A program made the translations under genes and the position numbers. A stretch of 49,437 bases of DNA from Deltaproteobacteria bacterium tcs-42 (lineage in GTDB: Bacteria > Desulfobacterota > Desulfuromonadia > Desulfuromonadales > Geopsychrobacteraceae). The notes below the pieces were generated by a model, which was not told the origin of the DNA, did not search any database, and was given only the letters and a program-made list of their open reading frames with translations. The DNA lies in assembly GCA_002049545.1 (NCBI GenBank), contig LLYT01000009.1, positions 1-49,437 of the forward strand, in the 5' to 3' direction. The number at the start of each line of letters is the position of its first letter. Position 1 is the first letter of the stretch. Below are positions 1-9,798 of this stretch, piece after piece.

Positions 1-962
1 CTGCAGAGCAGAAATATCACTATCCCGATCAAAACCCGCCATAACCATCTCTTTTCAATACAATTGATTTCTCTCTGCAGGGTCTTATGCTGGCGAAGCG
101 GTTGACAAATACCCGGGAGCATCCCGTAAAGAGTTGCTATGAACAGCCCGATATAGAGAGGATAGCCAATGTAATTGTAATTGGCCTGCAGCATGTCGAA
201 GGGGCAGTGGTGACTCGGCATCTGGTAGATGTAGAGAGAAATAAATGACACGATTGCTCCTAGTGAAGCAAAGAATGTCAGCACCGATGTTACAAATAAC
301 AAGTGGCGCAATGTCGCTGCTTTGGAATAAAAGCAGGCACATAAAACCATCAGGTGGATACCGGTCAGCGAGAAAAATAGCCACATGGCCTGTCCGGCCG
401 GCATGCCCGCCAGATCACTGATGACGCTTTCCCCTTCTGTACTGAATAATGAGCCGCAGCATGAAGTAATGACTTCGGGGTGTAAGCCACTGAAGTAACT
501 CCATTGCAGGTAGCAATCCAGTGCGACCAGGGGGGTCAGAAACATGAGACTGAGGTACTTTGGGCGGACCAGTGGACAATCTTCGGTGCGCTGATCCAAT
601 CGATTCAGAACGATCCAGAATGCAGCGGCAAACAGAAGAATTCCTTTGAATAAAAGGACCAACCAACCGACCAGGTTGGCGTTCAAAGAGCCTGTCGCAC
701 ACATTGCGCCGACGAATAGCTGATGGATGTCCTCAGCAGTGGCGACAAATAATAATCCTGATAAAATTTGAAAACCTAAAGCGTAATTGAGTAAACTGGA
801 GACCAGCCAGGTCTTTCGTTCCAGAAGAATCTGTCCTTCGGAATTGCTGTCGATATCCCAGCTTGATAATATTTTCATCCCCAGGCCGCTGGCAAAGATC
901 ATGATCAACAGGGTGATCAACGAACCGCTGAGAAGGGCAAGGATTCCGGGGTGTAGAATCAC
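1..962 (-). CDS. Polytopic membrane protein with conserved-looking Cys motifs (partial, 3' end beyond window)
   Basis: I do not recognise a named family. The frame is open from a GTG at 962 to the left edge, at least 320 codons, with no stop. The GTG overlaps the stop of the upstream ATPase gene (GTGA), and a GAGG lies 10 nt ahead of it inside that gene. The translation is strongly hydrophobic, with about eight or more likely membrane segments. Cysteines and histidines sit in compact motifs: MCATGSLNAN, ITSCCGSLFS and SHHCPFDMLQ, the kind of residues that bind metal or thiols. It is the last visible gene of the NosL/FtsX/ATPase operon, so it may be the membrane partner of that transporter. 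Codon logic and hydrophobicity make the gene solid. The function is unknown; metal or thiol handling is inference from the neighbours. Confidence 0.8.
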   Translation of the reverse strand, partial: MILHPGILALLSGSLITLLIMIFASGLGMKILSSWDIDSNSEGQILLERKTWLVSSLLNYALGFQILSGLLFVATAEDIHQLFVGAMCATGSLNANLVGWLVLLFKGILLFAAAFWIVLNRLDQRTEDCPLVRPKYLSLMFLTPLVALDCYLQWSYFSGLHPEVITSCCGSLFSTEGESVISDLAGMPAGQAMWLFFSLTGIHLMVLCACFYSKAATLRHLLFVTSVLTFFASLGAIVSFISLYIYQMPSHHCPFDMLQANYNYIGYPLYIGLFIATLYGMLPGICQPLRQHKTLQREINCIEKRWLWRVLIGIVIFLLC

Positions 963-1651
963 TTGGTGGTATCCTCGGTTATTTGGCCATGGCGCAGGTT
1001 GACACGACGTTGAATCAAGGGGGAATTGTAAATTGAAGGGTCATGGGTGGCGATAATGATGGTTCTTCCATCGCTATGCAACTCGGCTAGAATTTGCAGC
1101 AGATGACGTGATAGTTCACTATCGAGGTGTGCTGTTGGTTCATCCGCGATAATAATCTCCGGGTTCGCAATCAAAGCGCGGGCAATAGCGACACGTTGCT
1201 GTTCTCCTCCGGAGAGCTGGTTCACTTTTTTCCCCATCATTCCTGCTAACTCAAACCGTTCCAGAACCGCTGTCGCTGATTTCTTCATTTCAGCAAATGA
1301 TTGGCTTGAAGGGTAGAGTGGCAACATCACATTCTCAATAACGTTGACATCGCGTAACAGATTGTATTGTTGAAAGACGAACCCGAATTTCTCGCGCCTG
1401 ATTTGAGCAAGAAATCGCTCGGGGAGTTTAGATACGGTGAGATCGCTTAATCGGATACTTCCAGACGTCGGCCTGCTCATACAGCCAAGCAGGCTGAGTA
1501 AAGTTGTTTTTCCTGATCCACTTGGCCCAGTCAGAGCGACGATTTCGCCGTGCGAAATCTGCATAGAAATATTCCTTAAAGCGGTCACTTCATCGGGTTG
1601 ATGGCGGTGATAGAATTTATTGAGATTCTCAGCGACCAATAGCTGTGCCAT
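959..1651 (-). CDS. ABC transporter ATP-binding protein, LolD/MacB type
   Basis: Cytoplasmic ATPase of 230 residues, the usual length for the LolD/MacB/FtsE-like family that powers mechanotransmission transporters rather than substrate channels. Walker A is GPSGSGKTT (about residues 42-50). The Q-loop is FVFQQYNLL, the signature motif is [15 protein letters not shown], Walker B is EIIIADEPT and the switch histidine is in IIATHD. It begins 5 nt after the stop of the FtsX-type permease upstream, its obvious partner. It overlaps the next gene by 4 nt (GTGA), so translation is probably coupled. No periplasmic binding protein is encoded nearby, which fits a MacB-like function. Substrate is not visible. 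The NosL genes in the same operon suggest a role in copper or envelope redox homeostasis. Confidence 0.93.
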
Positions 1652-1656
1652 GAAAA

Positions 1657-2814
1657 TCAGCCTCTCATCACGTGTTCAGGGTCAGTCACAGCGGTTTTCC
1701 AGGCTGGAATAATCGTACAGCCGAGGTATGGGACGATTGTCAGAAACGCCAGTACAAACAGTTGGTAAAAGTCGACTGCCGGTGTGAGTTGAAACTTCGG
1801 GAACAGGACCGACCACCCTTTGAGCAGTGGAATCAATCCCGGAGCATCGAAGATAAACACATGAACCCAGGCGGCAAGAGTTCCCAGGATAAAGGATGTT
1901 AAGGAAATCACCAGGCCTTCCCAGAATTTGACACTAAGAACGTCAGCGGTTTCCCAGCCGATGGCTTTCAGAATACCGATTTCCTGTTTTTCTGTGGCAC
2001 TGATTCCCGTTGCCTTATCCCAAGCCAGAATACAGAAAGCGATCAGCGCGGCGATGGCAACCGCGAGCATCATCCCGCTACGCCAGTTAAACAGACTATC
2101 GTAGGTATGGATAATTTCGTCACGGGTAATCGGCCGTGTGTCAGGGAGCAGATATTTAATTTTTTTGGCCAGGACTTTGATCTCCCGTTGATTATGGATC
2201 TCCACGATCAGGTCGGTTGCCAGGCTTTGATCCATGGAGAAAAAATCTCTCAATGTCGCTTCCTGCAATACCACCAGATCGTTGGTCAGCAGATTGGACT
2301 CCGCTTGAAAGACCCCGGTAATTTTAAACGTCGTGGTTTCTTTGCCGCTATCCTCAAGAACCAGATTGTCTCCGATAGCGGGGCCAAAGGCCTGCGCAAC
2401 ACCTTTTCCAATGGCGCATTCTCCGGGGCCCAGTGGCAATCTTCCATTGAGAAGTTCCAGTTTTTCCCGATAACTGCTGATTCCGGACAAAGTCAGATTC
2501 GCTTTGATCAGAGAATCGTAATAGTACCCCCAGACTCGGGGGGTGACCGATTTGACACCGGGAAGTTTTTCGATCGTTGCGACATGATCCGTTGGGATTA
2601 ATTCGTGACGACCAGCTGAGATTTTTTGAATCGTCAAGGCAGGAGCTTCTGTCAAGCTGCTGGTGGCTTCCACCTTCAGGGCATGGGTCAAAAAGAGAAC
2701 CGATCCCAAAGTGGCGATGGTAAAAGCGTAGACAACAACTAAAGACAAGTTTTTAGACTTCCGACGCATCAGGCTGGAGAGGGTATATTCCAGTGTTTTA
2801 AGTTGTCGTACCAT
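1657..2814 (-). CDS. ABC transporter permease, FtsX/MacB family
   Basis: Inner-membrane permease of 385 residues with the FtsX/MacB plan: an N-terminal membrane segment (about residues 22-46, after a basic SLMRRKSKN stretch), a large periplasmic MacB_PCD-like domain (about 50-230) and three C-terminal membrane segments. The cytoplasmic TEKQEIGILKAIGW segment is the typical FtsX coupling motif that contacts the ATPase. I chose the ATG at 2814 because AGGAAAT lies 9 nt ahead and it starts 4 nt after the stop of the small upstream gene. A longer reading from 2865 would overlap that gene. The next gene downstream is the matching ATPase. Substrate is unknown. Confidence 0.9.
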   Translation of the reverse strand: MVRQLKTLEYTLSSLMRRKSKNLSLVVVYAFTIATLGSVLFLTHALKVEATSSLTEAPALTIQKISAGRHELIPTDHVATIEKLPGVKSVTPRVWGYYYDSLIKANLTLSGISSYREKLELLNGRLPLGPGECAIGKGVAQAFGPAIGDNLVLEDSGKETTTFKITGVFQAESNLLTNDLVVLQEATLRDFFSMDQSLATDLIVEIHNQREIKVLAKKIKYLLPDTRPITRDEIIHTYDSLFNWRSGMMLAVAIAALIAFCILAWDKATGISATEKQEIGILKAIGWETADVLSVKFWEGLVISLTSFILGTLAAWVHVFIFDAPGLIPLLKGWSVLFPKFQLTPAVDFYQLFVLAFLTIVPYLGCTIIPAWKTAVTDPEHVMRG

Positions 2815-2818
2815 CGGT

Positions 2819-3133
2819 TTAATTTCCTGGAAGTTGTTGGATTCTGATTCGGCTCGAAAATCCAATAGGGTTGGGTGGAATCATTGAGCCGGTAGGGAAA
2901 TGTTCTAATGCCCCGGGAAAATCCTGGAATGGCGCAAATAAATCGGCTTGCGAGGGGTGGCGGGTGTAGCGTGCCTCACTGAAGAGAGAGAGGTCAGTGA
3001 TTCCAAGGGCTTTGACCAGTTGTTGTTTTTCTGACACATCGACACTTTTAGCCGCACCCGCTGCCATTAAGCTCGCCGTCAAAATTGCTAAGGTGAGAAT
3101 AAATGCTAGATAGGCAACCCCACGTGTCATCAT
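2819..3133 (-). CDS. Small membrane-anchored periplasmic protein of the NosL/ABC operon
   Basis: A 104-residue protein that I cannot assign to a family. The first 25 residues form one hydrophobic segment, an uncleaved anchor or signal peptide. The rest is soluble and rich in aromatic residues, Pro and His (SLFSEARYTRHPS, LFAPFQDFPGALEHFPTG), with no Cys. It overlaps the preceding NosL gene by one base (TAATG) and is followed 4 nt later by the permease, so it is translationally embedded in the operon and is unlikely to be a chance ORF. The His and Met residues could touch metal, but this is speculation. Confidence 0.75.
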   Translation of the reverse strand: MMTRGVAYLAFILTLAILTASLMAAGAAKSVDVSEKQQLVKALGITDLSLFSEARYTRHPSQADLFAPFQDFPGALEHFPTGSMIPPNPIGFSSRIRIQQLPGN

Positions 3134-3606
3134 TAATCCGGCAAGGTTTCAGGGGTTATTTTATTAAACGGCAAAATCCGAATACCAGAATGATCACGCA
3201 TAAATGTTTCGGCGAACTCTTTTCCCGACACAGGGATCAGCTCTTTCCCCATCGGTCCATAGACATCACTTCCTAAAACAAAAAAAACGGAGTCTATCGG
3301 GACCAGTTGCGTGCTGTAATATTCGGTGACATAGATTTCATCAATCTCGTTCCGGGCCCGCTGACCCTCGCCTTGAGGAAGCTTGAAATAGAATCGGAAC
3401 AGATCCTTGCAGCCGTCAAAAAAAATCTGCTGGCCATCTTTGAAAACAATTGTGGCAATCCAATCCGGGTAAGGTGCGACGAACATTCCACAGATCGGGC
3501 AGCGATCATTCTTGTCAGGCATTCTGGGCTCTGCAGAGAATATGGGTCCGGCAAATAAGCCCAAAAGAGAGATCACCAGAGCTATTTTCTTGAATAAAAG
3601 TTTCAT
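3133..3606 (-). CDS. NosL-family protein (second copy)
   Basis: Periplasmic protein of 157 residues with a Sec-type signal peptide (basic MKLLFKK, a hydrophobic core, likely cleavage near FSAEP). The hallmark NosL motif CPICGM is present (C36, C39, M41), followed by the family's DGxxxxFDGCKDLFRFY region. NosL proteins bind Cu(I) and help assemble the copper centres of nitrous-oxide reductase. Classical NosL is a lipoprotein; here no lipobox cysteine is visible. No nosZ, nosD, nosF or nosY is present in the window. The gene follows another NosL-family gene and overlaps the next gene by one base. A copper-chaperone role for the divergent oxidase is inferred. Confidence 0.88.
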   Translation of the reverse strand: MKLLFKKIALVISLLGLFAGPIFSAEPRMPDKNDRCPICGMFVAPYPDWIATIVFKDGQQIFFDGCKDLFRFYFKLPQGEGQRARNEIDEIYVTEYYSTQLVPIDSVFFVLGSDVYGPMGKELIPVSGKEFAETFMRDHSGIRILPFNKITPETLPD

Positions 3607-3630
3607 CGGCTTATTGTTTATTCATTTTCA

Positions 3631-4131
3631 TCATTTTCTTTTTTTCATCTTGCGCATTTTGCGAATTCGCTGGGTATCCTGGTACATATCCTCATAGCTG
3701 GCTTTCATCGCCTGATCAAAATTGGCAATAGTTCCACCATGGGCGGCGATAAAATTATCGGCATCTGATTGCTGTGCAAAAGCCCATTTTGCTCTGGATG
3801 TCATGACCCCGTTTTTGTCTCCTCCAAGAATCCATATGGCTTTTTCTGCTATCACCAGCTTTCCCGTGAGATAATCAGCGACTAAGAGTCGCTTGGGCAT
3901 GCGATCAATGGCATTGGCAAACTCAAGAGCCATGCAGTGAATGCTGCAAGTGCCAACTTCACCACCATCTTCATACTCAACCAGCATACGGCTGTGGCCG
4001 AATTTGGTTCGATCCATCCCACAATATTGACAGGTGCTGTAGGAAAGTTGATCCGGATGTTGGCTCGCCTGAGCAAAAAAGCTGGTCAGGCTGATGATGA
4101 GAACAAATAAGACTAGAATTATTTTTTTCAT
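3631..4131 (-). CDS. NosL-family protein (first copy, operon leader)
   Basis: A 166-residue secreted protein. I chose the ATG at 4131 because a GAGAGGGAGA Shine-Dalgarno precedes it and a typical signal peptide (MKKIILVLFVLIISL, cleavage near AQASQ) follows. A reading from 4314 adds 61 residues of non-signal-like sequence through the promoter region. The NosL motif appears as CQYCGM (C34, C37, M39), with a second CSIHCM cluster about 45 residues later. The C-terminus is a basic, Met-containing tail (RKMRKMKKRK). The two NosL paralogues in this operon differ greatly, so they may act at different steps, for example metal acceptance and delivery. It is the first gene after the divergent promoter region. 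Confidence 0.87.
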   Translation of the reverse strand: MKKIILVLFVLIISLTSFFAQASQHPDQLSYSTCQYCGMDRTKFGHSRMLVEYEDGGEVGTCSIHCMALEFANAIDRMPKRLLVADYLTGKLVIAEKAIWILGGDKNGVMTSRAKWAFAQQSDADNFIAAHGGTIANFDQAMKASYEDMYQDTQRIRKMRKMKKRK

Positions 4132-4198
4132 ATTCTCCCTCTCTGGGTGTCGTGAATTTGAATGGATGATAATTTCATTTGCACATTGCTGCATGAAA

Positions 4199-4227
4199 TT
4201 TATACCATGCAGAAGATAACGCGACAA
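4199..4227 (-). promoter_or_regulatory. Candidate sigma-70 promoter for the NosL/ABC operon
   Basis: Read on the minus strand: -35 TTGTCG (4222-4227), a 17-nt spacer, -10 TATAAA (4199-4204). A 6-bp inverted repeat, TGCATG at 4190-4195 with CATGCA at 4206-4211, flanks the -10 box and could be an operator. Read by eye; no mapping data. Confidence 0.45.
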
Positions 4228-4300
4228 CAGAACTTGTGCTTTGCTAGCAATCATCAGTGTCCGTTGGCTTTTCTCTATAAAAATGGAAATAAATAGTTTG

Positions 4301-4346
4301 CTAAAGTTGATCAAATTGGTAAACTATCGTGAAGTTTCAACTTTAG
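4301..4346. repeat. 10-bp inverted repeat ahead of the SCO/oxidase operon
   Basis: CTAAAGTTGA (4301-4310) and its exact complement TCAACTTTAG (4337-4346) are separated by 26 nt. They flank a weak promoter-like pair, TTGCTA (4298-4303) and TAAACT (4320-4325), whose -10 lies at the centre of the repeat. A second pair, TAGTTT (4294-4299) with AAACTA (4321-4326), is interleaved with the first. The right arm ends 9 nt before the sco start codon, which has no Shine-Dalgarno. It could be an operator with two half-sites or an mRNA structure. Confidence 0.5.
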
Positions 4347-4355
4347 TCAACTGTA

Positions 4356-5147
4356 ATGAATGTGAAAAAAATCTGCTTGGGAGGAATCTTGCGTCATACG
4401 CTGTTGGTAATAGTCTGTTCAGTTGTTTTATCGAGTTCTGTGTTGGCTGCCGAAGAGCGAGTTGAGCTGATTGAGCAGTTAGGAAAAAACATTCCTCTGC
4501 AGATGAATTTTATTGATTCTACAGGTGAGACTGTAAGCCTTGACCAGCTGATTGATCGTCCCACCCTTGTAGTCCCGGTATTCTATGATTGTCGGAATGT
4601 TTGCAATATGCTGCTGGGAAGGCTCTCTGCCGTTCTTCCTGAAATAAAAATGAATCCCGGGGAAGACTATAATGTCGTCACTTTTAGTTTTGACCCCCTC
4701 GAAACCCCGGAAATGGCAGCTCACAGTAAGCAGACTTTTCTGACGGCGACACAGGTTTCATTCCCCCCCAAAGCTTGGCGCTTTGTCATCGGCACCCGGG
4801 AGAATATCCTTCAATTGACTGACGCTGCCGGTTATTATTTTAAAAAAGAGGGGGATGAGTTTCTTCACCCGATTACTGCATTTGTGGTAACAAAAGATGG
4901 AACCATCGTACGTTACTTGCCTGGACAGAGCTTTTCTGCAATCGACCTCTCCATGGCTTTATTTGAAGCCAGCGAAGGTCGAATCGGTAAGCCGATACGT
5001 CAGGCCCTTCAATTCTGTTTCAGTTACGACCCGGAAGGGCGTCGATATGTTTTTAACCTTATGCGCGTCAGTGGCACAGTTATCCTGTTAACTCTAGGGA
5101 GCTTTTTGCTCTTTCTCATCCTTGGCGGTAGAAAGAAGAACAAATGA
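4356..5147 (+). CDS. sco: SCO1/SenC-family copper chaperone
   Basis: A 263-residue thioredoxin-fold protein. It has an N-terminal signal or anchor segment (residues 12-31) and, unusually, a second hydrophobic segment near the C-terminus (about 235-257) followed by a basic RKKNK tail. The copper and redox ligands of the family are present: the CxxxC motif CRNVC (C79, C83) and a histidine (H171, FLHP). SCO proteins insert copper into the CuA site of oxidase subunit II and reduce its cysteines. It overlaps subunit I by 4 nt (ATGA) and leads the oxidase operon. The start has no clear Shine-Dalgarno; a GTG two codons downstream is an alternative. Family assignment is secure. Confidence 0.93.
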   Translation: MNVKKICLGGILRHTLLVIVCSVVLSSSVLAAEERVELIEQLGKNIPLQMNFIDSTGETVSLDQLIDRPTLVVPVFYDCRNVCNMLLGRLSAVLPEIKMNPGEDYNVVTFSFDPLETPEMAAHSKQTFLTATQVSFPPKAWRFVIGTRENILQLTDAAGYYFKKEGDEFLHPITAFVVTKDGTIVRYLPGQSFSAIDLSMALFEASEGRIGKPIRQALQFCFSYDPEGRRYVFNLMRVSGTVILLTLGSFLLFLILGGRKKNK

Positions 5148-6769
5148 CAAATACGACCCTCAAATCCACAGGTTTTTATAGTGAAAGCCCAAGATCCGGG
5201 ATCCTTGGCTGGTTGTTGTCGACCGATCATAAACGCATCGGCATTTTGTATCTGGGCTGTATTGTTGCGATGTTTCTGGTTGCAATGTGTCTGGGTTTGG
5301 CACTGCGTCTGGAGTTGATTGCTCCCGGCCCGACAATCATGGGTCCACAAACCTATAATGCCACCTTTACGGTCCACGGCATTATTATGATTTTTCTTTT
5401 TATTATCCCCAGCATCCCTGCTGCTTTTGGCAACCTGGTCTTGCCAATTCAACTGGGTGCCAGAGATGTTTCTTTTCCGAAGTTGAATCTTGTATCCTGG
5501 TATTGCTACATCATCGGGGCGATCCTTGCGATCAGCGCTGTTTTCTCCGGTGGTGGGGCTCCGGACACGGGCTGGACTTTCTATGTCCCGTTCAGCACCC
5601 AGACAACGACCAACGTTAATCTGGCTGTTACAGGGGCATTGATGTTGGGTTTTTCCTCAATGCTGACGGGGATAAACTTTGTCACCACGATACACCGGTT
5701 ACGGGCTGAGGGGATGGGATGGGGGCGCTTGCCGATGTTTGTCTGGACCCTTTATTCAACAGCCTGGATACAGATTCTTGCGACCCCGATGCTCGGTATT
5801 ACCTTGATACTTATCGTGCTGGAGCGCGTATTTGGGGCCGGACTGTTCGATGCGGCGCGTGGTGGTGACCCAATTCTTTATCAACACCTATTCTGGATTT
5901 ATTCACATCCGGCCGTCTATATTATGATCCTCCCCGGTATGGGAGTCATTTCAGAGATTATCCCCACTTTTTCTCGCAAGCCGTTGTTTGGTTATTGGGC
6001 CATGGCGGTTTCCAGCCTTACCATTGCCTTTGCTGGCTCTCTGGTCTGGGCGCACCATATGTATGCAAGTGGCATGAGTGATTTTGCCATTCTGATTTTC
6101 TCATTTTTAACCTTCATCGTAGCCATTCCAAGCGCGATCAAAATTTTCAACTGGGTTTCAACTCTCTATAAAGGATCCATTCAATTGGCACCGCCAATGT
6201 TGCATTCTTTGGCGTTCATTTTTAATTTTGCTATTGGTGGTCTTGGCGGATTGGCTCTTGGAGCTGCAGCCAGCGATATTCACTTGCACGATACCACCTT
6301 TGTCGTTGGCCACTTTCATTACACTATGTTTGGTGGTACCGGCTTTGCTTTCTTTGCCGCCCTCCACTACTGGCTGCCTAAATTCACCGGGCGTATGTAC
6401 AACCATAAAATTGCCGTTATCAGCTGGGCTTTGGTGTTTGTTGGTTTCAATGTTACCTACATGGCAATGCAGGCTGTTGGCGTTCAGGGTATGCCAAGGC
6501 GCTATTACGATTATTTACCCGAGTTCCAGACCTTGAACGTCGTATCAACGGTCGGATCCTGGGTTCTTGCTGTGGGGTTGATCATTATGTTTGTTAATCT
6601 CTGGAATGGGATTCGTCGAGGAGGTCTCGTCGGTCAGAACCCCTGGGGGAGTGCAACCTTGGAGTGGACCGTCCCTTCACCACCTCCGATGGAAAATTTT
6701 GGCGAAGAAGACCCGATCGTTACCAAAGGTCCCTATAACTATAAAGGGGTGGTCGCTGATGAGTATTGA
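5144..6769 (+). CDS. ctaD: Cytochrome c oxidase subunit I, A2-type haem-copper oxidase
   Basis: A 541-residue, 12-helix catalytic subunit that reduces O2 at the haem a3-CuB site. Visible ligands: H78 and H392 (low-spin haem a), H390 (haem a3), H255, H304 and H305 (CuB), and Y259, the cross-linked tyrosine. Helix VI reads YSHPAVY, not GHPEVY, so the D-channel glutamate is missing. By the known classification of haem-copper oxidases this is the A2 subfamily, in which the YS pair replaces that glutamate. The K-channel helix (SLTIAFAGSLVWAHHMYASGM) looks complete. The gene starts inside the sco stop codon and overlaps the subunit III start by 11 nt. Confidence 0.97.
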   Translation: MTNTTLKSTGFYSESPRSGILGWLLSTDHKRIGILYLGCIVAMFLVAMCLGLALRLELIAPGPTIMGPQTYNATFTVHGIIMIFLFIIPSIPAAFGNLVLPIQLGARDVSFPKLNLVSWYCYIIGAILAISAVFSGGGAPDTGWTFYVPFSTQTTTNVNLAVTGALMLGFSSMLTGINFVTTIHRLRAEGMGWGRLPMFVWTLYSTAWIQILATPMLGITLILIVLERVFGAGLFDAARGGDPILYQHLFWIYSHPAVYIMILPGMGVISEIIPTFSRKPLFGYWAMAVSSLTIAFAGSLVWAHHMYASGMSDFAILIFSFLTFIVAIPSAIKIFNWVSTLYKGSIQLAPPMLHSLAFIFNFAIGGLGGLALGAAASDIHLHDTTFVVGHFHYTMFGGTGFAFFAALHYWLPKFTGRMYNHKIAVISWALVFVGFNVTYMAMQAVGVQGMPRRYYDYLPEFQTLNVVSTVGSWVLAVGLIIMFVNLWNGIRRGGLVGQNPWGSATLEWTVPSPPPMENFGEEDPIVTKGPYNYKGVVADEY

Positions 6770-7358
6770 ACATCGTGATGATACCGGTGCCCGCTTTGGT
6801 ATGTGGCTGTTTCTCTACACCGAGGTCATTCTGTTTAGCGGCCTGTTTATCCTCTACGCAGTTGCTTTGGCGAAATATCCAGACCAGTTTGCTGAAGCCA
6901 GCCATAAGCTGAATATCTATTTTGGAACGATTAACACCATAGTGCTTTTAACCAGCAGCTTAACGATCGCACTGGCGATTACCGCCATTCAAAGAAATAA
7001 AATAAAGCAAACCCTGACCCTATGTATAATCACTATCGTATTGGCGGTTGTTTTTCTGATCAATAAATACTTTGAATGGGCTGCTGAAATTGGCCATGGG
7101 ATTTATCCCGGTTCAGATTATTTGGCCGAGCTGGGTCCCGGGATTACTGCATTTTTCAACCTTTATTATTTCACGGCAGGATTGCATGGTGTCCATATCC
7201 TGATTGGTGGGACTCTCATTGCCGTTGTTGCCGCCATGATTGCCAAGGGCAAGGTGACCAGTGATCGTTATACATTGCTGGAAAACAGCGCCCTCTACTG
7301 GCATCTGGTTGACCTGGTCTGGATATTCCTGTTTCCGCTGTACTATTTAATTCTGTGA
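6759..7358 (+). CDS. ctaE: Cytochrome c oxidase subunit III
   Basis: A 199-residue polytopic membrane protein with five predicted helices, the short form of subunit III. Typical segments are FGMWLFLYTEVILFSGLF near the N-terminus, FEWAAEIGHG in the middle and GLHGVHILIGG plus YWHLVDLVWIFLFPLYYL at the end. Subunit III stabilises subunit I and may hold lipids at its oxygen channel. I chose the ATG at 6759, which lies inside the 3' end of ctaD (11-nt overlap) and is preceded by AAAGGGGTGG. An upstream in-frame start at 6591 would add out-of-family sequence that is only the shadow of subunit I. Confidence 0.95.
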   Translation: MSIEHRDDTGARFGMWLFLYTEVILFSGLFILYAVALAKYPDQFAEASHKLNIYFGTINTIVLLTSSLTIALAITAIQRNKIKQTLTLCIITIVLAVVFLINKYFEWAAEIGHGIYPGSDYLAELGPGITAFFNLYYFTAGLHGVHILIGGTLIAVVAAMIAKGKVTSDRYTLLENSALYWHLVDLVWIFLFPLYYLIL

Positions 7359-7365
7359 GGTGACT

Positions 7366-7650
7366 ATGGCAGAACATAAACACGAGCCGGTTCCCTACCG
7401 GACCTTTATAACGATCTGGGTTGCATTGCTGATCCTGACAGTGGTGACCATTGCTGTGTCCCGAGTGAATTTGGGAGCCTGGAATATTTGGGTCGCATTG
7501 GTTGTTGCATCAGTGAAATCGAGTCTGGTTATTTTAATTTTCATGCATTTAAAGCAGGAATCAAAATTGTTCAAAATCGGGTTACTCACCCTGCTCGTTA
7601 TCGTGGCTATCTTTATTGGATTGACCTTTACCGACGTGCTTTACCGTTAG
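7366..7650 (+). CDS. ctaF: Cytochrome c oxidase subunit IV, prokaryotic type
   Basis: A 94-residue protein with three membrane segments, matching the bacterial COX4 family (TFITIWVALLILTVVTIAVS, then VKSSLVILIFMHLKQE with the family's FMHLK). It has no catalytic residues and is thought to help assembly or stability of the oxidase. I prefer the ATG at 7366, since GAGGTGA lies just ahead; a GTG at 7360 would add two residues. It lies between subunits III and II in the operon. Confidence 0.9.
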   Translation: MAEHKHEPVPYRTFITIWVALLILTVVTIAVSRVNLGAWNIWVALVVASVKSSLVILIFMHLKQESKLFKIGLLTLLVIVAIFIGLTFTDVLYR

Positions 7651-7659
7651 GGAGACATT

Positions 7660-8874
7660 GTGAACCAATTGAATAATCCTACTGCGCAAGCTGTTGATAA
7701 TGTCCTGATCTATATTTTCGGATTTTCGCTTATCCTGTTACTGGGAATCACCGCGGTCTCTGTTTACTTTGTTGTTAAATATCGGCGCTCTAAATATCCG
7801 GAACCGACATCAGATGTTGAAGGGAGTTGGTTTCTGGAGACCCTTTGGACGGTTTTACCGATCATCATTGTGCTGACGATGTTCTGGTATGGTTGGACCA
7901 ATTATGTCGGCTTACGAGAAATCCCTGCTGACGCCATGGAGGTTAAGGGGACCGCACGGATGTGGTCATGGGTTTTTGAATATCCTGATGGCCGCAAGGA
8001 AAGCAAACTTTATGTCCCGGTGAATAAGCCCGTCAAGGTGGAGCTCTATTCAGTCGATGTCCTGCACAGTTTCTTTGTTCCGGCGTTTCGGATTAAACGG
8101 GACACCGTTCCCGGGATGGAATCTTATGTCTGGTTTCAGGCCCCAGAAGCAGGCAGTTATGACATTTTTTGCGCTGAGTACTGTGGTGTTGGTCACGCCG
8201 ATATGACCACGAGCGTTGAAGTTCTCAGTGAAGAGGATTTTGAGCGATGGTCACAAGCCTCTGATGAATCTGGTGGCGAGCCAAGAGGCCTGGTGGTTCT
8301 GAACGAACAGGGATGTATTGGCTGTCACAGTCTGGATGGTAGTGAAAATATTGGACCAACTCTTTTTGAACTGTCAGGGACCCCCCGCCAAATAGAGAGA
8401 GACGGGCAAACTATTGAAATAACAATCGATGAAGATTATCTGCAGCGGGCCATCCGAGATCCAGCGGTTGAACTGACGAAGGGTTTTGATCCAATGATGC
8501 CTGCCTATGATGAAGGGACGATCAGCAATGATGATCTTCAGGCTGTCGTGGACTATCTTCTCGGTAAGGTGGTTGTGACGCCAGCGGCTCCCAGCGGATC
8601 GCGATTACTCGAAGTCAACGGTTGTACGGGTTGTCATTCCAGTGATGGAAGCGAGGAAATTGCACCAACATTCAAAGGAATTGGTCAACGTGAAGTGACG
8701 ATTGAAGCTGACGGGAAAGAGATCACTCTGCAGGTTGATGCTGAATACCTCCGTCGAGCTTTGCTTGAACCCAATACCGAAATAGTCAAAGGTTTTGCTC
8801 CAATGATGCCGGCAGCAGACTATTTAAGCGCAGAAGAAATTGATGCTATTATTGAGCACCTCCTCCAGCAATAA
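7660..8874 (+). CDS. ctaC: Cytochrome c oxidase subunit II with CuA and two cytochrome c domains
   Basis: Electron-entry subunit of 404 residues starting with GTG (GGGAGA 5 nt ahead). There are two N-terminal membrane helices (about 15-38 and 58-80) and a periplasmic cupredoxin with all CuA ligands: H136, C171, C175, H179, M182, with E173 between the cysteines. Two tandem class I cytochrome c domains follow. The first has CIGCH (C219-H223) with a methionine near 279-280, and the second CTGCH (C322-H326) with one near 382-383. The two domains are alike (GxxGCHSxDGSExIxPT and GF-PMMPA), so the second probably arose by duplication. This makes the enzyme a caa3-type oxidase with two haems c that can wire electrons directly to CuA. 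No signal peptidase II lipobox is seen. Confidence 0.96.
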   Translation: MNQLNNPTAQAVDNVLIYIFGFSLILLLGITAVSVYFVVKYRRSKYPEPTSDVEGSWFLETLWTVLPIIIVLTMFWYGWTNYVGLREIPADAMEVKGTARMWSWVFEYPDGRKESKLYVPVNKPVKVELYSVDVLHSFFVPAFRIKRDTVPGMESYVWFQAPEAGSYDIFCAEYCGVGHADMTTSVEVLSEEDFERWSQASDESGGEPRGLVVLNEQGCIGCHSLDGSENIGPTLFELSGTPRQIERDGQTIEITIDEDYLQRAIRDPAVELTKGFDPMMPAYDEGTISNDDLQAVVDYLLGKVVVTPAAPSGSRLLEVNGCTGCHSSDGSEEIAPTFKGIGQREVTIEADGKEITLQVDAEYLRRALLEPNTEIVKGFAPMMPAADYLSAEEIDAIIEHLLQQ

Positions 8875-8886
8875 TGGGAAGATGTG

Positions 8887-9798
8887 ATGCCAATCCCGAA
8901 TTTAAATTACGCTAAAGCCGCATCGACGGATCAATTTTTGAGTTTAGTCCAAGTCTTGCGGCGCCTTTTCCGGATAGAATTGTCGGCTCTGGTGACCCTG
9001 TCTGCACTGGCGGGATATTTGTTTTTTGGGGGGATTTGGGGCTCTGATGCTTTTCTGCTGGCTGCCGGAGTGGGTTTCCTGGCTGCGGGATGTTCGGCCC
9101 TGAACCAATGGCAAGAGCAGGATCTCGATTCGCGCATGGAACGGACGCAGCAGCGTCCGCTACCAACAGGTCAATTATCACCGCAGGCAGTGTTATTGTT
9201 GGCATCGTTAGCGATCAGCAGTGGCTCACTTTTTCTCTCTGTATTGCCTGGAAATATGCCCCTTCTACTTGGCCTGCTGGCGGTTATCTGGTACAACGCA
9301 GTTTATACGCCGTTAAAACGTCGCTCCCCTTTTGCTGCTATTCCGGGGGCGATCTGTGGAGCATTGCCACCATTAATTGGTTGGACCGCAGCCGGGGGCA
9401 CCCTGTTCACGCATAAATCTTTGATTCTTGCGGGGACTTTGTTTGTCTGGCAGATACCTCATACCTGGCTTCTGCTCTGTCGTTATCGTGAGGATCTGCA
9501 GCGCAGTGGGTTGCCGAATATTTTTAAAACGATACCGACCCACAGATTGCTGAGAATCAACAATTGTTGGATGGCTGGGCTGTTTCTGTGTTATTTGCTG
9601 TTTCCACTGTTCCATTTTATTCAAAGCGAGATCCTTGTGTATCTCTACATTTCAGGCTTATCTGTCATTATGATTCCCGTTTTTAAAATTTCAGATACTG
9701 CGGGGGAAATAGATTCTATATCGAAGAAATTTCATCTCATCAATATCTCAATGGCTTTATTCCTCACAGTGTTAATTCTCGACAGGTTGATTGCATAA
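8887..9798 (+). CDS. ctaB: Protohaem IX farnesyltransferase (haem O synthase), UbiA family
   Basis: A 303-residue integral membrane prenyltransferase that attaches a farnesyl chain to haem b, making haem O, the precursor of haem A needed by the oxidase upstream. The first Asp-rich motif is intact, NQWQEQDLDSRMERT followed by QRPLPTG. The second site is YREDLQRSGLPNI, a variant of the usual DDYxxAGIPM. About nine membrane segments are visible. The start is the ATG at 8887; a GTG directly before it at 8884 is equally in frame. It lies 12 nt after subunit II and ends the operon. No haem A synthase (ctaA) is found in the window, so either it is encoded elsewhere or the enzyme uses haem O. Confidence 0.9.
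   Translation: MPIPNLNYAKAASTDQFLSLVQVLRRLFRIELSALVTLSALAGYLFFGGIWGSDAFLLAAGVGFLAAGCSALNQWQEQDLDSRMERTQQRPLPTGQLSPQAVLLLASLAISSGSLFLSVLPGNMPLLLGLLAVIWYNAVYTPLKRRSPFAAIPGAICGALPPLIGWTAAGGTLFTHKSLILAGTLFVWQIPHTWLLLCRYREDLQRSGLPNIFKTIPTHRLLRINNCWMAGLFLCYLLFPLFHFIQSEILVYLYISGLSVIMIPVFKISDTAGEIDSISKKFHLINISMALFLTVLILDRLIA

Follow-up and report, generated by a model that had tools for sequence, protein, structure and literature searches.

The window analysed here is the entire 49,437-nucleotide (nt) contig LLYT01000009.1 of Deltaproteobacteria bacterium tcs-42, whose 2.55-Mb genome (completeness estimate 100%) is placed in the genus of Desulfuromusa kysingii. One end of it carries a minus-strand operon of six genes, divergent from an operon for a caa3-type cytochrome oxidase. 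The six encode two NosL-family proteins (NosL_a and NosL_b), a small anchored protein, an FtsX-type permease, its ATPase and a polytopic Cys/His-bearing membrane protein (here the 8-helix protein), and they form a syntenic unit of their own. The chances appear slightly better than even that this module is a self-contained, general ATP-driven machine of the cell envelope for copper supply in the periplasm, with the caa3 oxidase probably as its client in this bacterium. Genomic context lends good support to the copper reading, and the module is best read as neither a relic of denitrification nor a part of one oxidase.

A six-gene unit that recurs across phyla

Relatives of the 8-helix protein were sought by a GTDB scan, which returned 442; the best 80, which were kept, belong to Desulfobacterota, Nitrospirota, Acidobacteriota (Holophagae and Thermoanaerobaculales), Gammaproteobacteria (Chromatiaceae) and one member of the Deferribacteres. 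Among the 118 genomes sampled from the order, 31 carry the protein, and among the 326 from the phylum 52 do; of these 52 carriers 41 were called strong (at least 180 bits) and 11 were dropped for some tests.

Gene neighbourhoods were assessed at 116 distinct loci, drawn from 134 with the 8-helix gene in a census that leans to close relatives; 68 of them extend 5 kb or more to either side (full flanks). Genes were called by script rather than taken from annotation, and a few antisense calls are wrong. Within 5 kb of the 8-helix gene lie the ATPase (110 loci), the FtsX-type permease (107), the small protein (101) and NosL (87). All four are found together at 84 of the 116 loci, and the same order recurs across the maps. 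The corresponding counts in a set of 94 loci are 87 for the permease, 79 for the small protein, 76 for the ATPase and 68 for NosL_a, some having been lost in gene calling. The association also holds between genomes, as a NosL match is present in 30 of the 31 carriers of the order versus 4 of the 87 other genomes, two of these four being below the cut-off.

One Nitrospirota locus (L230:3629-6590) has a second ATP-binding cassette (ABC)-like set directly upstream of the NosL module, made up of an FtrD-like protein (PF10080), a permease that looks FtsX-like by eye and an ATPase.

NosL_a and NosL_b

Both NosL proteins match PF05573 above its cut-off of 24 bits (97.9 bits for NosL_a and 47.6 for NosL_b). 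The Cu(I) motif of NosL is given in a part of PMC6530538 as CXM, or CXXCXM in clade II, with a second conserved Met. CXXCGM and the Met of GPMG are invariant in 73 of 73 NosL_a sequences, while all 23 NosL_b sequences share C37, M39, C62, C66 and M110, with C34 kept at 95% and GVM as the second-Met motif. NosL_a also aligns to solved NosL across both the Cys and the Met sites (7og7, 7.9e-6; 7osf, 4.8e-4). From these motifs, both proteins are candidate copper binders. A lipobox-like pattern within the first 45 residues was found in 2 of 73 NosL_a and 0 of 23 NosL_b sequences, and the window proteins are therefore called NosL-family rather than classical NosL lipoproteins.

The ABC pair, the small protein and the 8-helix protein

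The permease model matches the folds of LolCDE, MacB, YknZ and HrtBA, with a best E value of 1.1e-16 and template-modelling scores of 0.33-0.58 on the query among the matches listed. It has a MacB-like periplasmic core and an FtsX C-terminal domain, and the ATPase is separate, which are the features of a type VII ABC transporter. Since there is only one permease gene, the permease is probably a homodimer. The pair does not reach the curated LolD and LolCE profiles (206.7 of 307.75 and 45.1 of 362.45 bits), and it falls outside MacB, as the genes are separate and the ATPase scores 193.7 of the 966 bits for the MacB profile. The small protein has an N-terminal anchor followed by a strongly conserved stretch, EARYTR..AD..FQDFP..HFP.GS (83 sequences).

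No match to the 8-helix protein was found in Pfam, NCBIfam or PDB sequences. Residues C88, C168, C169, H251 and C253 are invariant in 22 of 22 aligned members, and in the predicted model (mean predicted local distance difference test, pLDDT, 85) these residues sit in the loops that link helix 2 to 3, 4 to 5 and 6 to 7. The model is poor in parts, with pLDDT below 50 at 170-181 and 248-250, and no built metal site is claimed. The Cys/His loops average 0.3, 1.05 and 0.36 Lys/Arg residues versus 4.0, 3.4, 2.6 and 2.2 in the other loops, and because of these few positive charges the C, CC and HHC loops probably face the periplasm.

The search for a solved relative of the 8-helix protein yielded none by sequence and none by Foldseek at E <0.5; VIA-align of the model returned helical bundles and unrelated membrane proteins, which leaves room for a relative. 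A defence role was set aside, three module proteins having no PADLOC match.

Copper genes near the module

SCO is the most frequent copper gene within 14 kb of the module (43 of the 116 loci, 40 of them within 5 kb), followed by multicopper oxidase (16), PCuAC (6), caa3 subunit I (3) and NosZ (2). At least one of these is present at 54 of the 116 loci and 33 of the 68 with full flanks. The threshold for multicopper oxidases was 90 bits, lower matches having come from a GEVED-domain protein.

The link with SCO is far stronger than expected from SCO abundance. Among the matches listed for the order sample, 17 of 33 loci have SCO within 10 kb, against 0.63 expected, and 200,000 simulations, based on each genome's own SCO count and size, never exceeded 6. 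This figure covers 33 of 35 rows, the fragments G043:C50 and G012:C51 being excluded, and 3 of the 17 nearby SCO genes are the cox operon's own. The median distance between SCO and the 8-helix gene is 75 nt (31 SCO genes at 30 of 94 loci), and SCO starts a few nt from the 8-helix gene in L184 and L206. CxxxC is present in all 31 listed members of one SCO neighbour cluster, and the neighbouring SCO of Malonomonas rubra matches PF02630 at 3.9e-21. That SCO or PCuAC is repeatedly found beside the module suggests a relay: the module would provide Cu(I) and the chaperone would insert it.

Of the 31 carriers of the order, 9 have a giant multicopper oxidase (1433 aa, Cu-oxidase_2), versus 3 of 87 other genomes; these are the 12 genomes above 270 bits, weaker matches being dropped.

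Two further ideas about partners were abandoned. The cbb3 oxidase was considered as a general client: FixO above 100 bits occurs in 20 of 31 carriers versus 34 of the 87 other genomes (p = 0.02, with five genomes dropped because all their FixO rows were below 30 bits), and it is present in 0 of 9 genomes of the window's genus. The TonB receptor next to the module in Imhoffiella (L232), regarded as a possible copper importer, is of the haem type.

In the Desulfuromonadales locus L053:9377-17153, genes for SCO, a cytochrome c/periplasmic-binding-like protein, a 159-aa protein and the giant multicopper oxidase (1433 aa, Cu-oxidase_2 and DUF4214) lie in a row and possibly form an extracellular copper oxidase system. 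The same oxidase family is seen in L049, L062 and L063. Other giants, surface-type proteins of 1678-1987 aa, lie near the module in L205, L211, L212, L231, L243 and L252 and are followed by a small multicopper oxidase (Pfam was run for L211 and L252 only); the L211 giant carries SdrD_B and carboxypeptidase-regulatory-like domains.

The module and nitrous oxide reductase

NosL is usually taken as a mark of nitrous oxide reduction. The initial annotation had reported no nos gene here, and for nosZ this is confirmed: neither NosZ nor lactonase-type NosZ is over its cut-off in any of the 118 genomes of the order, the window genome included. A hidden nosZ was therefore discarded as the explanation for the NosL genes. 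Nearly all weak NosZ matches cover its CuA end, mainly at CoxB positions, and weak lactonase-type matches are scattered propeller-like stretches. The six module proteins include no NosD match (NosD was not searched in the whole genome).

NosZ is over the cut-off in 3 of 326 phylum genomes, two of which carry the 8-helix protein; three such genomes make for thin statistics (p 0.04 to 0.07). The annotation had named tracking of the six genes with nosZ as an outcome that would overturn its proposal, and no such tracking was seen, as only 2 of the 52 phylum carriers have NosZ over the cut-off.

Both genomes with NosZ and the 8-helix protein (L260 and L261) have the module at the distal end of a nos operon. 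The order in L260 is Rieske, cytochrome b, cytochrome, nosZ, two small genes, nosD, nosF, nosL-like, nosY, thioredoxin-like, one more gene, NosL_b, NosL_a, a 451-aa NosL, small, FtsX, ATPase and 8-helix. Profile searches confirmed NosZ and NosD; the NosY-like and nosL-like genes have no NCBIfam match and, together with the Rieske, cytochrome and thioredoxin genes, were labelled by position and look of the sequence. Judged by its genes, the module in L260 thus stands beside NosDFY-like genes and is not itself NosDFY. NosL_b, a small-like protein, FtsX and the 8-helix protein were called in L261, and the ATPase was not called.

The segment L260:12658-15354 encodes a 250-aa NosL-like protein whose second half weakly matches cytochrome c (2.6e-6) as well as the 451-aa NosL-like protein. 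Frames of 567-609 aa corresponding mainly to the second half of NosZ were seen in L257, L258 and L259 and in G133, G171, G178, G213, G289 and G356. They score 133-150 bits, far below the cut-off, and may be a divergent NosZ-like group of small genomes; the 8-helix protein, too, has a weak relative in G178 and G213.

The caa3 oxidase as a probable client

The caa3 operon of the window is ordinary, sco-coxA-coxC-coxD-coxB-ctaB being the order of the caa3 locus tags reported for Desulfuromonas strains in a part of PMC8235581. Its subunit II scores 172.7 bits against 147.7 for the CoxB profile and has the CuA ligands and fused cytochrome c of a caa3 oxidase. Two CXXCH cytochrome c stretches are present in this subunit (7660-8874), where a textbook caa3 subunit II has a single one.

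Of the four copper respiratory enzymes sought in the window genome, caa3 is the only one found; there is no FixO, giant multicopper oxidase or NosZ, and others were not searched. The module adjoins caa3 in four Desulfuromusa contigs (the window, L034, L033 and L175) in two arrangements, divergent in the window and D. kysingii and head-to-tail in BB25 and AUK122, where ctaB and the module share a strand and the module begins 42 and 87 nt behind ctaB, respectively. Across the window's genus, the module accompanies a CoxB match in 4 of 4 genomes and occurs in 0 of the 5 that lack one, which gives p = 0.008 if the genomes were independent; they are not, linkage and ancestry confounding the comparison, and the CoxB of G099 is a fragment below the cut-off.

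The initial annotation had proposed a neighbourhood search beside the cox genes and a phylogenetic profile against caa3 and nosZ. The adjacency is real in Desulfuromusa, but it is seen in no other genus among the loci of the census, where caa3 subunit I is near the module at only the 3 loci mentioned above. CoxB matches at E <=0.001 occur in 70 of 118 genomes of the order (65 over the cut-off). Counted by genome, 27 of the 31 carriers have CoxB and 4 lack it, and 43 of the 87 remaining genomes have it (p = 0.0002); counted by genus, however, the association is not significant (17/20 vs 19/31, p = 0.11). For nosZ the profile shows only the two phylum carriers already described. At the phylum level, CoxB is over the cut-off in 13 of 41 strong carriers versus 39 of 285 other genomes (p = 0.006), and p is 0.06 with all 52 carriers. 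The caa3 oxidase is at most one client of the module, and the claim is plausible for the genus Desulfuromusa only; within the window's bacterium it is probably the client.

Proposed mechanism and competing explanations

In the route that we infer, the two secreted NosL proteins would bind Cu(I) through CXXCGM and the second Met, and the anchored small protein would dock NosL at the permease. The permease homodimer with two ATPases would act as a type VII ABC mechanotransmitter, ATP hydrolysis moving the periplasmic domains of the permease with no substrate crossing the membrane. The 8-helix protein would receive or relay the copper, which may then pass to a chaperone such as SCO or straight to the apo-enzyme. 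The client would vary by bacterium: the caa3 oxidase in this one, NosZ in two genomes, and in others a multicopper oxidase, either giant or small.

A number of observations weigh against such a copper-supply machine. NosL is not within 5 kb at 29 of the 116 loci, nor at 11 of the 68 with full flanks. Among these 11, the permease is kept in 9 and SCO in 6, and the core of the module can therefore exist without an adjacent NosL. No listed copper gene is within reach at 62 of 116 loci (35 of 68 with full flanks). The relative in the nos operon of L260 keeps the three Cys sites and has Leu for the first His of HHC, so that H251 is not universal. As for the client, 43 of the 70 CoxB genomes of the order are without the module, and caa3 therefore does not need it everywhere. 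Of the 41 strong phylum carriers, 28 have no CoxB above 100 bits and hence no visible CuA oxidase, which rules out that the module always accompanies caa3. The coincidence of module and caa3 in the genus may also be one co-loss of adjacent genes. The findings that favour export, given next, belong on the same side.

The main rival is copper efflux or detoxification, with the ABC machine pushing periplasmic Cu(I) collected by NosL outward, much as MacB exports its own substrates; we regard it as unlikely. The permease has MacB and HrtBA, an exporter of haem, among its matches by fold, and several type VII relatives export. In Desulfuromusa L035 a CusA/CzcA heavy-metal resistance-nodulation-division (RND) gene is some 6 kb away from the module (TIGR00914, 1204 bits), a partial CusA/CzcA gene occurs in Nitrospirota L222 (500 bits, below the cut-off), and genes of the same cluster, as defined by sequence clustering only, are near the module in L237 and L051. 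However, family searches found no MacA-like or TolC-like match among the six module proteins, and the P-type ATPase signature DKTGT is in no called gene of 140 loci (duplicates and six NosZ loci included). The frequent neighbours, SCO, PCuAC, NosZ and multicopper oxidase, moreover need or chaperone copper.

It is rather less probable, and in our view quite unlikely, that the module handles a non-copper substrate (haem, sulphide or a lipoprotein) for copper-containing enzymes, its NosL partners having another role. The best fold match of the permease is the lipoprotein transporter LolCDE, the haem exporter HrtBA follows at 1.9e-11, and a cytochrome or Peripla_BP gene is near the module at 24 of 116 loci. 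The 9 full-flank loci with permease and 8-helix genes but without NosL would also suit this explanation, and sulphide supply has been proposed for NosDFY in a part of PMC6530538. Against it stand the copper motifs of NosL, invariant where NosL is present, the scores of permease and ATPase below the curated Lol cut-offs, and the neighbouring SCO and PCuAC, which are copper chaperones.

The initial annotation had inferred that the module supplies, loads or repairs copper for this oxidase. Its broader half, a link with copper proteins, is upheld by the SCO excess and agrees with the pattern in the genus, whereas specificity for caa3 is contradicted by the 28 strong carriers without CoxB and the 43 CoxB genomes without the module. 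A system dedicated to loading or repairing the CuA site of caa3 is accordingly improbable. Adjacency in two arrangements and the split within the genus speak for it, but caa3 adjacency is confined to Desulfuromusa, and the cox operon already holds an SCO. The annotation had also argued from the CuA site that NosZ and subunit II share. This argument is weak because NosL serves CuZ: in the parts of PMC6530538 and PMC7558416 concerned with it, NosL is a Cu(I) chaperone for CuZ, and its loss in Paracoccus impairs CuZ and spares CuA, CuA sites being served by SCO and PCuAC (PMC7558416).

Chance neighbourhood, in which module and cox operon would share no function, is highly improbable: the two are on separate contigs in G099, but they stay together through the change of orientation within the genus, five genomes of which show neither, and the intergenic region has a block conserved between the window and D. 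kysingii.

Relation to known copper systems

The module resembles NosL-NosDFY in combining a NosL-type protein, with CXM and a second Met, and an inner-membrane ABC machine. It differs in its FtsX/MacB-type permease, in having no NosD among the six and a NosL without a lipobox, in the addition of the anchored and 8-helix proteins, and in its occurrence where no nosZ was found. NosY is not known to be a permease of the FtsX/MacB type. With LolCDE, MacB, YknYZ and HrtBA the module shares the FtsX C-terminal domain, the MacB-like core and an ATPase of the LolD/FtsE/MacB clade, whereas its partners are NosL and the 8-helix protein, not LolA, MacA or TolC. SCO and PCuAC, which neighbour the module as counted above, have to our knowledge no ATP-driven partner.

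A NosL-NosDFY locus without NosZ has been described in Parageobacillus, where, in a part of PMC13068155, NosL and the ABC machine are thought to serve another copper protein; that locus has NosDFY and not an FtsX-type permease with an 8-helix protein. The literature search found no paper recognisable as describing the NosL-FtsX-8-helix operon. The module may be viewed as a NosL copper system that is assisted by an ABC transporter of another type and includes a membrane protein family unnamed in the libraries searched. That it represents an undescribed, widespread class of ATP-driven copper loader, feeding several unrelated copper enzymes and paralleling NosDFY with another type of transporter, is put forward tentatively, at somewhat less than even probability; such a class would consist of the NosL pair, the small anchored protein, the type VII ABC transporter, the 8-helix protein and often SCO.

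As far as we know, periplasmic copper loading in largely anaerobic bacteria has been little studied. If the copper-supply reading is true, a NosL operon serving other copper enzymes changes the annotation of NosL as a nitrous oxide gene, a membrane protein family without a Pfam or NCBIfam match gains a name, and a second ABC-driven route of copper assembly becomes testable in a named strain, as the two operons are neighbours in D. kysingii DSM 7343 (L034/L177).

Gene layout of the window

The two divergent operons described in the initial annotation, with 224 nt between them, are borne out, and gene calls and family matches agree with the contents it gave for each strand (Table 1). The 8-helix gene runs off the contig, with 320 of about 335 residues present and about 15 missing. 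The permease probably starts at the ATG at 2814, which gives 385 aa, a length as in homologues; with this start, adjacent minus-strand genes overlap or are at most 5 nt apart, except for 24 nt between the NosL genes.

Table 1. Features of the module and the cox operon in the window
Feature	Position	Strand	Remarks
8-helix membrane protein ("six")	3..962	-	C-terminus lost at contig end; Cys/His-bearing
ABC ATPase, LolD/MacB/FtsE type	959..1651	-	ABC_tran 6.2e-35
FtsX-type permease (type VII ABC)	1657..2865	-	MacB_PCD 1.7e-12, FtsX 7.1e-9
Small anchored protein	2819..3133	-	No family match
NosL_a, secreted NosL-family protein	3133..3606	-	PF05573 7.5e-28; CPICGM and GPMG
NosL_b, second NosL-family protein	3631..4131	-	PF05573 2.7e-12; CQYCGM and TCSIHC
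Divergent intergenic region, 224 nt	4132..4355	.	Between NosL_b ATG and SCO ATG
SCO copper chaperone of cox operon	4356..5147	+	PF02630 1.1e-7; CRNVC
caa3 subunit I (CoxI)	5144..6769	+	TIGR02891 665.6 bits, slightly below cut-off 670.75; YSHPAVY, which we take to mark an A2-type oxidase
caa3 subunit III (CoxIII)	about 6759..7358, start inferred	+	Only models below their own cut-offs
caa3 subunit IV (CoxIV)	7360..7650	+	Family match
caa3 subunit II (CoxII)	7660..8874	+	TIGR02866 over cut-off; CAEYCGVGHADM, presumably the CuA motif; two cytochrome c stretches
Haem O synthase (CtaB), UbiA family	8884..9798	+	Family match

A promoter scan of the 224-nt intergenic region gave one site, not above shuffled sequences. 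The conserved block of this region, TTTGCTAAAGTTGATCA..TTGGTAA at 4297-4322, is kept in the divergent region of D. kysingii and is a candidate shared regulatory site.

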